Of a stretch of DNA of 64,000 bases, positions 3,799 to 36,479 are shown piece by piece. The notes beneath the pieces were generated by a model. That model was given only the letters and a program-made list of their open reading frames with translations, was not told the origin of the DNA and searched no databases. Source of the DNA: Planktothrix sp. PCC 11201 (GTDB lineage: Bacteria; Cyanobacteriota; Cyanobacteriia; Cyanobacteriales; Microcoleaceae); assembly GCF_900009135.1 (NCBI RefSeq), contig NZ_LT797693.1, forward strand, positions 20,050 to 84,049, written 5' to 3'. The position numbers and the translations under genes were made by a program. How positions within the stretch are numbered: position 1 is the first letter of the stretch; each line of letters starts with the position of its first letter.

Positions 3799-3880
3799 AG
3801 TGTGTCTCCTCGAATCAATCTATACTGGGTTCAGCTACTGGAGTGATGAGTTTTGCCCTCATGTTCGATGGGGCTGGTTT

Positions 3881-4073
3881 TGATTCCTCTGTGGAGACCG
3901 AGATCACCTGATCTCCCACCCTCCTGAATCAGAATTCACCTGGTGGAGTCCTCTGATGGGAAGGGAAGGGCCACGGGTTTTTCGTGGTAGTCACCTAAAG
4001 GATCAGCTTTGGACTCCCAATTCTTTCACGGGTTAATTTCAAACCGAACCCAGTTCGGGTAGCAAAGCCCGAG
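3881..4073. ncRNA. Strongly structured non-coding region, candidate leader RNA or sRNA (unassigned)
   Basis: Lies in the 416-bp gap between divergent cphB and trmD. Three consecutive foldable units are visible. (A) TGATTC/GAATCA (3881-3886/3926-3931) encloses GTGGAG/CTCCCAC and an inner GAGATC/GATCTC arm. (B) A perfect 7-bp stem GGAGTCC/GGACTCC (3945-3951/4011-4017) is stacked on CTGAT/ATCAG (3953-3957/4002-4006), with a CCACG/CGTGG hairpin inside (3971-3975/3983-3987). (C) CCGAAC/GTTCGG (4044-4049/4053-4058) competes with TCGGG/CCCGA (4055-4059/4068-4072), an either/or pairing as in switches. Stems pair equally on both strands, so orientation is open. On the minus strand it would end about 80 nt before cphB, with a possible -10 (TATACT) at 4095-4100. 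It matches no riboswitch consensus I know. Confidence 0.4.
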
Positions 4074-33859: not shown

Positions 33860-34141
33860 TCAAATCCAGTCTTCTTGATCGTTTTTTTTGCCTCGATAAA
33901 TTTGACCTGTGGCGTGAATTTGGCGAGTTTTTTCAAATAAAGTTTCGTCGGTATATCCCCAGGTTTGTAAGATTATTTCTAAATTGCTTTGAATATCCTT
34001 CGCCCCCGGAAAACCTCGATAACGAATTTTTAAACGGGCTAACTCTACTAGATTATAGTCCGTTGCTTCTTGCTCTAAAAGACTCAGAACAATCATTCGA
34101 TCAGTATTGTATTGAGGATGTTTCTGTTCTTGAGTTGTCAT
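33860..34141 (-). CDS. DUF3288-family protein
   Basis: 93 aa from the ATG at 34141 (MTTQEQKHPQYNTDR). A longer frame from 34186 adds only non-conserved residues and is rejected. The core (YNLVELARLKIRYRGFPGAKDIQSNLEIIL) fits the small DUF3288 family restricted to cyanobacteria. Soluble and helical. A HIP1 octamer lies just upstream. Function unknown. Confidence 0.8.
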   Translation of the reverse strand: MTTQEQKHPQYNTDRMIVLSLLEQEATDYNLVELARLKIRYRGFPGAKDIQSNLEIILQTWGYTDETLFEKTRQIHATGQIYRGKKNDQEDWI

Positions 34142-34242: not shown

Positions 34243-34248
34243 ACCGGA
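34243..34248 (+). promoter_or_regulatory. DIF1-like motif (ACCGGA) upstream of patX
   Basis: One mismatch from TCCGGA, the DIF1 motif reported upstream of patX genes and linked to promoter induction in differentiating cells of Anabaena. Its first base is exactly 60 nt before the patX ATG (34303), inside the reported window of about 69 nt. The second peptide gene has an exact TCCGGA at the same spacing. Confidence 0.55.
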
Positions 34249-34302: not shown

Positions 34303-34482
34303 ATGCGAATCTACAGCACTATTTTACTATCGACTTTGTTAGTAGCTACCCTGACTCGTTATCTTCTTAATCCGATTAATGTTAACTCATCTTCAAAAAG
34401 TGAAGTGGTAGCTTTTATCGCAACTCAAACCAGTCCAGAATTTGATACACAAGGCGTTCCTCATCGGGGAAGTGGACGTTAA
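34303..34482 (+). CDS. patX: PatX-type peptide precursor, RGSGR C-terminus
   Basis: 59 aa, below usual ORF cutoffs. A hydrophobic N-terminus (residues 5-22; STILLSTLLVATL, then LTRYLL) works as signal or export sequence, followed by a Ser-rich spacer and the C-terminal HRGSGR, whose last five residues (55-59) are the RGSGR pentapeptide of PatS/PatX that binds HetR and blocks differentiation. PatX is known in nearly all filamentous cyanobacteria that carry HetR, heterocystous or not. DIF1-like ACCGGA lies 60 nt upstream. hetR itself is not in the window. Confidence 0.85.
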   Translation: MRIYSTILLSTLLVATLTRYLLNPINVNSSSKSEVVAFIATQTSPEFDTQGVPHRGSGR

Positions 34483-34616
34483 TGATCATGATCAAAAAAC
34501 ACAGGAGTGAGTTAAGAAACAATAGAATCATATCTATAATATTTCTTGGAATTTTAGACTCACTCCATTTTTTTTACATTTGATGAGGGGATGATCAATC
34601 AGGATTTGATTGATGA

Positions 34617-34622
34617 TCCGGA
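34617..34622 (+). promoter_or_regulatory. DIF1 motif (TCCGGA) upstream of the second peptide gene
   Basis: Exact TCCGGA, its first base exactly 60 nt before the ATG at 34677, the same spacing as the patX site. It is embedded in ATCCGGATC, which also gives a small palindrome; the patX copy shares CCGGATC. Confidence 0.6.
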
Positions 34623-34676
34623 TCGGTAATTAAAGCATTGGTATTCACAGGTAGTCGTCCCAACAATCAGGCAAAA

Positions 34677-34913
34677 ATGTCTAACTTTATTACCGTCTTA
34701 ATGATCAGTACCATTGTGAGTGTGCCTCAGAGTTTTGACCCTCAACCTCAAATCATGGAACAGCGTGATCCAGAACAAATTCAGTTTTTCAAGTCCAGAG
34801 AATTCCCTGCGTCTCTGAACTCCGATCAAATAAAAATCACCCATCACAGCCACGACGATCAAAATACCGAAGATATTTCTCCTAAACGCGGTGATGGACG
34901 ACGGAACACCTGA
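34677..34913 (+). CDS. Second PatX-like peptide precursor (RGDGR)
   Basis: 78 aa. ATG at 34677 (MSNFITVLMISTIVSV), giving a hydrophobic N-terminus over residues 3-16. A hydrophilic His/Asp/Gln-rich middle leads to the C-terminus KRGDGRRNT; RGDGR at residues 71-75 differs from RGSGR by one residue. Unlike patX, three residues follow the pentapeptide. It lies 194 bp downstream on the same strand with the same DIF1 spacing, so I read it as a diverged tandem paralog. A longer TTG start at 34638 would bury the hydrophobic segment and is rejected. Confidence 0.6.
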   Translation: MSNFITVLMISTIVSVPQSFDPQPQIMEQRDPEQIQFFKSREFPASLNSDQIKITHHSHDDQNTEDISPKRGDGRRNT

Positions 34914-34943: not shown

Positions 34944-36344
34944 TTATTCCATAGCTTCTCCTCCAACAACGACATTGCGGATGCGTAAACTCGGGCCACC
35001 GCAGCCTACGGGTAAACCATTTTGTCCTCCCTTTCCACAACCCCCCGATTCATCCCAATAAAAGTCATCACCAATGGCTTCAATATCTGCTAGGGTGGTG
35101 AACACATTTCCCGATAACGTCACATCTCGGACTGGTTCTTCTAATTTGCCATTTCTAATCATCCAGGCTTCCCCGGCACTGAATGTAAACATTTCACCAT
35201 TAGTCATTCCCCCCAACCAATTGCGAGCATAAACCCCTTCTTTCACATCACTGAATAAGTCCTCAACGGAAGTATCACCCCGTTCGATCCAAGTATTTGT
35301 CATTCTGACTAAGGGGGGAAAATGATAATTCAAACAACGGGCATTTCCAGTAGGGACTTCTCCTAATTTACCTGCGGTTTCACGGGAATGAAGGCGACCG
35401 ACCAAGGCCCCATCTTGGATCAGTTGGGTGGTGGTCGCTGGAGTTCCTTCATCGTCATACTGATAACTTCCCCGATGTCCGGTCGGGGCTGCACCATCAA
35501 AGATTTGGAGATTTTTCGGGCCAAATTGACGCCCCAAGGTCATAACTTCTAATAAATCAGGATTTTCATAGGTCATATCCGCTTCCGACAAATGACCAAA
35601 GGCTTCATGGACAAATAAACCGGACAAAATGGGGTCGATGACAACGGTATAAACATTCCCTTTAACGGGGGGAAGGGCCAGGGAATTTACCGCCCGCCCC
35701 GCCGCACTGCGAACCTGCTGATCAAGATTTGTCAGGTCTTCATAGGCCTTGCGGGAACCGGTGGTTTCTCGTCCCGTTTGTACGGTTTCCCCATTTCTGG
35801 CGGTGGCTGCAAAGCGCATTTCCATATCGACCCAAGATTGTTCTAAGAGGGTTCCTTCGGAGGTGATCAGAATTATTCTTTGGGTGCTGTCGTTGTAGCG
35901 GACAGAAATGGTGGCAATACAGGGGTCAACACTACGCAGAATTTGGCCGTAGCGATCGCATAATTCTTTTTTTTCGGCTAGGGGAATTTGACGGGGATCG
36001 GTTCCCGTTAAGGGTAGGTTACAGCTATCTTGAATAATTGGAACTGGGGCGAGAATAGTTTCTTCGGTACCAATAAGTTTGGCGGCGGTGATGGCTTCAC
36101 CAATGCGATCTTCTAGGGTTGAGAGGCGATTAAAACTAGAAAAACCCCATCCGCCTCGATAGCAAGCTCGAACCTGACCGCCGATGGAAAGTCCTTCACT
36201 CAAGGTTTCAATTCGATCTCCTCGTAATAATATATCTGTTTCTTCAGCTTCTTCCAGACGAATGGCTAAGTAATCTACTTGGGACTGGTAACGCCCCATT
36301 AAATCGGCTAACAGATTCTTCACATCGGCAAGCAAACTAGGCAT
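34944..36344 (-). CDS. tldD: TldD-type metalloprotease
   Basis: TldD/PmbA-family zinc peptidase; with TldE it degrades unfolded peptides and matures small peptides. 466 aa from the ATG at 36344 (MPSLLADVKNLL). A longer frame from 36416 would add about 24 residues coded mostly by an STRR tract (PFPIPHSLL), so I reject it. The HEAFGHLSEAD metal site is near residue 247 and the C-terminal GGxxG region is present. No tldE/pmbA is adjacent. Confidence 0.93.
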   Translation of the reverse strand: MPSLLADVKNLLADLMGRYQSQVDYLAIRLEEAEETDILLRGDRIETLSEGLSIGGQVRACYRGGWGFSSFNRLSTLEDRIGEAITAAKLIGTEETILAPVPIIQDSCNLPLTGTDPRQIPLAEKKELCDRYGQILRSVDPCIATISVRYNDSTQRIILITSEGTLLEQSWVDMEMRFAATARNGETVQTGRETTGSRKAYEDLTNLDQQVRSAAGRAVNSLALPPVKGNVYTVVIDPILSGLFVHEAFGHLSEADMTYENPDLLEVMTLGRQFGPKNLQIFDGAAPTGHRGSYQYDDEGTPATTTQLIQDGALVGRLHSRETAGKLGEVPTGNARCLNYHFPPLVRMTNTWIERGDTSVEDLFSDVKEGVYARNWLGGMTNGEMFTFSAGEAWMIRNGKLEEPVRDVTLSGNVFTTLADIEAIGDDFYWDESGGCGKGGQNGLPVGCGGPSLRIRNVVVGGEAME

Positions 36345-36479
36345 AATGGTCAGCAGGGAATGGGGAATGGGGAATGGGGGACAGGGAACACCCAGTAATA
36401 GTTCTGGTTGTTTCATATCAGTATTGAAATATTATAACCTTGGCGCGGGTTGCTATATTCGGATATTGAGCATCACCGG

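Follow-up and report, generated by a model that had tools for sequence, protein, structure and literature searches.

PatS and HetN of Anabaena are described as RGSGR-type inhibitors of HetR, and PatX is defined by an RG(S/T)GR pentapeptide located at or near its C-terminus (PMC7761841). In Nostoc, PatX reportedly undergoes export and cleavage by PatP, which yields HRGTGR (PMC12756182). The account of the HetR-PatS6 complex describes a hydrogen bond between the Ser of the peptide and Glu253 of HetR, as well as contacts of the two Arg with Glu253, Asp270 and Asp278; it places Arg223 near the carboxyl end of the peptide and reports that the E253A substitution abolishes binding (PMC4649674). The role of hetR and patX in filamentous cyanobacteria without heterocysts has been called a mystery, and the effects of patX on expression are presented as basically independent of hetR (PMC11298460), so that a second target would fit.

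A second PatX-like precursor gene downstream of patX

The window, i.e., the whole 64-kb stretch of Planktothrix DNA that we analysed, carries on its + strand a patX gene (34303–34482; 59 aa, C-terminus PHRGSGR) scoring 37.6 bits with the PatX model NF047413, for which the cut-off is 30. Directly downstream on the same strand lies a second PatX-like precursor gene, hereafter B (34677–34913), supported by the comparison of 9/9 loci and by codon-model analysis of selection. Its translated ORF has a hydrophobic N-terminus and ends in SPKRGDGRRNT, which bears out the preliminary description of a 78-aa product with such an N-terminus and a KRGDGRRNT end. On the opposite strand, the divergent neighbour of patX is a DUF3288 gene (33860–34138; PF11691) that marks the locus common to Planktothrix and Arthrospira, and a TldD/PmbA metallopeptidase gene, identified by family match, is convergent with B (34944–36416). 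The tail of the latter gene is seen in all nine Planktothrix loci (as a 75-aa fragment in genome G006) and is absent from both of the Arthrospira loci examined. Since it is found in Planktothrix only, we rejected TldD/PmbA as a demonstrated partner of B, to which it may or may not be linked.

Promoter motif and intergenic region

B is preceded by an exact DIF1 motif, TCCGGA, in a −35-like position (34617–34622, + strand), which starts 59–61 nt before the ATG in 9/9 Planktothrix loci. In the window, a −10-like TATTCA (34642–34647, + strand) lies 19 nt after it. The DIF1-like motif of patX (34243–34248, + strand) stands 60 nt before its ATG, a distance equal in 9/9 loci. The equal spacing initially noticed for the two genes thus holds, both being at 60 nt in the window, but the patX motif reads ACCGGA and not the exact TCCGGA. 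TGGTATT and GATCCGGAT are likewise invariant in the region upstream of B in the nine Planktothrix loci. A promoter scan yielded one promoter-like site, elsewhere in the window, for 1.9 expected.

The hexamer TCCGGA is depleted in the window, where it occurs in a single copy versus 16.4 expected from shuffles; this depletion suggests avoidance, perhaps by restriction-modification. Among control ORFs from the fetched loci, which are partly redundant, exact TCCGGA was found at 54–72 nt in 7 out of 1383. The wider motif NCC[GT]GA occurred at that distance in 101 of 107 distinct small GxGR ORFs as against 31 of the 1383 controls, with several ATGs tried per ORF in the first set and the first ATG only in the controls; this set, drawn mostly from loci fetched for PatX matches, includes two evident false positives and excludes identical proteins as well as the copies with RGGGRR or RGEGRR. 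The motif at the DIF1 position of these 107 PatX-type ORFs was often TCCTGA (45) or CCCTGA (15), and not TCCGGA (25).

Between patX and B, a terminator-like hairpin, GGAGTGAGT...ACTCACTCC followed by a T run (34504–34576, + strand), is present in 9/9 loci, with a consensus fold of −15.3 kcal/mol and a weakest single fold of −11.0 (G006); a simple terminator scan of the window, with a loop limit of 8, did not list this hairpin and returned no terminator. Given the hairpin that follows patX in every locus, B looks like a separate transcription unit, and we rejected read-through from patX as its sole transcription route because of the intervening hairpin and its own TCCGGA/TGGTATT. With a DIF1-type promoter of its own, B is probably expressed in the cells and under the conditions in which patX is.

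The ~40 nt before TCCGGA (34577–34616) are also well conserved across Planktothrix. With the bases after TCCGGA, they form in some species an open frame (FDQG.I.QD.INDPD.E.KHWY), which is the frame of B in G007 and probably in G006. A 22-residue reading of this block matched the same locus in four of the six genomes given and, in three of those genomes, also a frame of 787–792 codons (E ~2) that we read, without a family search, as a probable glycosidase. We rejected the idea that this block is what remains of the 3' part of a former gene; it has single-base gaps in G002 and G003.

Conservation and selection

B is present in nine of the ten Planktothrix genomes searched, including that of the window, always directly downstream of patX, at a spacing of 194–195 or 352–355 nt, and its 78 codons are free of indels and stops in all nine; the patX products of the same loci all retain RGSGR. 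The one exception, G004, has a completeness of 73%; its best match to the patX of the window (E 0.486) is not a clear one, and it does carry a third PatX-family paralogue. A codon model applied to the nine genomes, on a tree that we fixed, returned omega values of 0.61 (LRT 7.56, p = 0.006) and 0.39 (p = 9e-6) for B and patX, respectively, whereas the other two frames of B, reduced to 66 and 62 codons after dropping stop codons, gave 0.90 (p = 0.57) and a value above 1 (1.62, p = 0.019). In pairwise comparisons, the median omega was 0.50 for B and 0.52 for patX, and the shifted frames had medians of 0.72 and 1.06; the close pair G002/G003 alone had a pairwise omega of 1.93, on few changes. Selection and synteny led us to reject B as a chance ORF. 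The proposal that B is a PatX-like gene in tandem with patX, under a DIF1-type promoter of its own, is therefore supported by a pair conserved in nine of ten genomes and by purifying selection, the absence of which on this frame had been named beforehand as the result that would speak against it.

The search for tandem pairs beyond Planktothrix, suggested in the preliminary description, also gave a positive result. In two Arthrospira genomes (G018, G023), DUF3288 and patX are arranged as in Planktothrix, and the ORF that comes next, of 79 aa, ends in PQPGDGRR, with Pro at the first Arg of the motif and no residue after GDGRR; as the G018 and G023 proteins are identical, we counted them as one observation. 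This Arthrospira B scores 10.4 bits with the B profile, has no NF047413 match at E ≤ 1, and is preceded by TCCGGA 71 nt upstream of its start and 19 nt from TATTTT. Elhai and Khudyakov are said to have placed, in 2018, a DIF1 motif within 69 nt upstream of patX; the Planktothrix B genes fall within this distance and the Arthrospira one lies slightly beyond. Among 61 DUF3288 loci in titled genome records, filtered within the fetched 4 kb and in some cases ending at contig ends, the pair of patX and a GDGRR gene occurred only in Arthrospira PCC 9108 and in four records of the Planktothrix type, of which two are MAGs.

A B-profile search of 388 genomes gave 25 with a match at E ≤ 0.1: nine correspond to B, one (G004) to a dual-motif protein described below and two (G042 and G341) to PatX-family members, and six further loci plus G184, upon inspection, had no PatX-like tail. 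In the search that located B in nine of the ten Planktothrix genomes, 27 genomes outside the genus matched at E 0.03–1, and the loci obtained for these (L010–L030) contained no ORF passing the filter. In IMG/VR, pattern matches to B were obtained, none of them confirmed.

Relation to the PatX family

In sequence, B is only weakly similar to PatX, which tells against their kinship. The B protein of the window scores 18.7 bits with NF047413, below the cut-off of 30, and six of the nine B proteins match this model at E ≤ 1 (scores seen, 16.4–20.1 bits; best E 0.00046). Reciprocally, the window patX scores 1.1 bits with the B profile, and profile-profile alignment (hhalign) of B with PatX gave a probability of 39% over 14 C-terminal columns. 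Pfam searches with PatX and B found nothing at the cut-off.

NF047413 matches above the cut-off occur in 71 of 158 relatives. In the loci fetched, which are a subset of these matches, many contain a second kind of PatX ending in RGSGRR-x-F, which in at least seven genomes of the genus labelled g11 is part of a tandem pair. One PatX-family copy, in G042, ends in QKGDGRREF and scores 36.4 bits, over the cut-off; the corresponding copy of its close relative G047 reads QSGSGRRNF, so that GDGRR in G042 may be drift. The third Planktothrix paralogue ends in RGGGRRDF in eight of ten cases and in RGEGRRDF and RGSGRRDF in one each; in the genome of the window it is located at L114 (G000 contig C21, 97069–97251), with 13 residues after RGGGRRDF. 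Five loci (L088, L089, L156, L162 and L169) encode PatX-like precursors with serial RGSGR copies (3, 3, 11, 4 and 3, respectively), resembling multi-copy peptide precursors.

The GDGRR tail and the HetR pocket

The tail of the nine Planktothrix B proteins has the consensus [AS]P-[KL]-[RP]-GDGRR followed by two residues. GDGRR is present in all nine, whereas RGDGR occurs in six, the first Arg being replaced by Pro in the other three. RGDGR had been advanced as the conserved element, with its lack of conservation among orthologs as the refutation test; it fails that test, and the conserved element is GDGRR, while the gene itself stands. The GDGRR codons (34890–34904, + strand) vary synonymously at third positions with an invariant protein sequence, indicating that the constraint acts on the protein. 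An invariant run of five residues among 18 invariant columns is moderately unusual (reached in 2460 of 100000 shuffles). The N-terminus of B is hydrophobic in the manner of PatX, with a best 12-residue mean hydropathy of 2.2–2.8 in 9/9 proteins; since this stretch has neither Lys nor Arg ahead of it, a Sec signal is at best putative and the export of B uncertain. B does not have the C-terminal RG(S/T)GR that defines PatX. Our literature search found nothing on RGDGR, on GDGRR in cyanobacteria or on PatX in Planktothrix, an earlier mention in Elhai and Khudyakov 2018 being possible; within the literature searched, B is an undescribed, real and conserved variant of the PatX kind.

Each of the ten Planktothrix genomes has one match to PF03574 (HetR), and residues 223, 253, 254, 256, 270 and 278, read against the description of the HetR-PatS6 complex (PMC4649674), are canonical in all ten. 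With an unchanged HetR pocket and an Asp opposite Glu253, an ordinary RGSGR-like binding of B is unlikely. The B peptide would thus not occupy the HetR cleft as RGSGR does, and canonical inhibition appears unlikely. The B gene and its promoter motif are well supported; from sequence comparison, we infer its target as follows. Our preferred reading, to which we give even chances, is that B may be a diverged and co-regulated PatX-type precursor acting as a companion that tunes the PatX-HetR signal outside the cleft binding typical of RGSGR. B would be transcribed from its own DIF1-type promoter alongside patX, and its precursor would be exported via the hydrophobic N-terminus. By analogy with the maturation of PatX by PatP, a peptide around P-x-[R/P]-GDGRR might be released, on which the two residues after GDGRR in Planktothrix would remain unless trimmed. 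With Asp in place of the Ser that bonds HetR Glu253, and a first Arg that seems dispensable, this peptide would act outside the canonical cleft, tuning the signal as a co-expressed companion through a different contact on HetR or on a partner or, alternatively, through competition for processing or uptake.

A somewhat less probable explanation is that B is an ordinary PatX paralogue whose peptide would enter the cleft of the HetR hood with lower affinity, as a weak inhibitor or decoy, along the lines of the preliminary description, which named a different HetR affinity or a decoy signal. This would fit its PatX-like layout and promoter kind, the RGDGR found in six of nine proteins, the PatX-family copy with KGDGRRE and the unchanged HetR cleft. 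However, Asp at the Ser site would set charge against charge with Glu253, the residue whose E253A substitution is reported to abolish binding (PMC4649674). Moreover, Pro replaces the first Arg in a third of the Planktothrix proteins and in Arthrospira, and Asp is invariant in B, whereas the third Planktothrix paralogue has G, E or S there. If B indeed provides a further conserved peptide, its motif altered while the HetR pocket is unchanged, it becomes directly testable whether such peptides have another receptor.

Dual-motif proteins in prophage-like DNA

In three of the 158 genomes, all of Planktothrix, DNA of a prophage or resembling one encodes a short protein in which a single hydrophobic stretch and RGSGR precede a tail of the GDGRR type. 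In G004 (L085:3175–3408, + strand), the protein has 77 aa, one hydrophobic stretch and HRGSGR, then TETQDMAPKPGDGRR; in G009 (L251:5287–5619, + strand), NRGSGR is followed by DEAPKRGDDRRE, so that the tail has GDD (GDDRR); and in G003 (L252, about 3807–4034, − strand), a shorter protein has NRGSGR and then VKPGDGRRT. The G004 protein was reached by the B profile at E 0.023, and a dual-motif search of the 158 relatives at E ≤ 0.01 retrieved only these three and, in G005 and G008, B itself. The G009 gene sits in a prophage with matches to tail needle/fibre, HNH, DnaB-like helicase and integrase; a small gene divergent from it is read, without a family match, as a putative helix-turn-helix repressor. 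The G004 and G003 neighbourhoods have several genes in common with that of G009, as judged by eye. No DIF1-like site was found at 54–72 nt before the G004 gene, the copy tested. IMG/VR yielded pattern matches to the dual-motif protein, none confirmed, and INPHARED phages and PLSDB plasmids gave one and four weak matches, respectively, none better than E 0.2 and all to apparently unrelated records.

That a single protein carries both tails is the best indication that RGSGR and GDGRR may act together, and phages may exploit host signalling in this way. In an extended, and unlikely, scenario, RGSGR from PatX and GDGRR from B would be two matched signals of Planktothrix and Arthrospira, each perceived by the HetR system at a different site, and temperate phages of Planktothrix would have acquired the two on a single membrane protein, as a means of reading or jamming the cell-to-cell signalling of their host.

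These prophage proteins that join both motifs, like the PatX-family member with KGDGRRE, argue against a quite improbable alternative in which B would be an exported small protein with no relation to PatX, merely using a DIF1 promoter and with another role for GDGRR. In its favour, B scores under the NF047413 threshold, its N-terminus is unlike the MRxY start of PatX, and DIF1 motifs are reported to drive genes not making peptides too (PMC7377430), but the tandem position, the similar size and the P-x-R-G-x-G-R tail also speak against it. Least probable of all, a decaying patX duplicate retained by chance could account for the higher omega of B than of patX and has a parallel in the tandem PatX-type copy of the g11 genus (L129) that lost its motif, but it is highly improbable for a gene with an intact reading frame in nine of nine genomes, omega significantly below 1, a conserved promoter motif, an invariant GDGRR and a counterpart in a second genus.

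Comparison with known systems

B resembles PatX as modelled by NF047413 in being a short precursor with a hydrophobic N-terminus, a C-terminal P-x-R-G-x-G-R and a DIF1-type motif ~60 nt upstream, in a gene that adjoins patX; it differs in having GDGRR instead of RG(S/T)GR, a first Arg that is not conserved and a score below the model cut-off. With the RGSGRR-x-F members and the third Planktothrix paralogue it has in common a second Arg after the motif, often followed by an acidic residue, a length of ~75 aa and a DIF1-like site. However, those genes are found at another locus and have a PatX-like N-terminus (44.1 and 44.9 bits for the copy in the genome of the window), and the third position of their motif is S, G or E, with D only once, in G042. 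PatS and HetN of Anabaena are HetR inhibitors of the RGSGR type, from which B is set apart by its motif.
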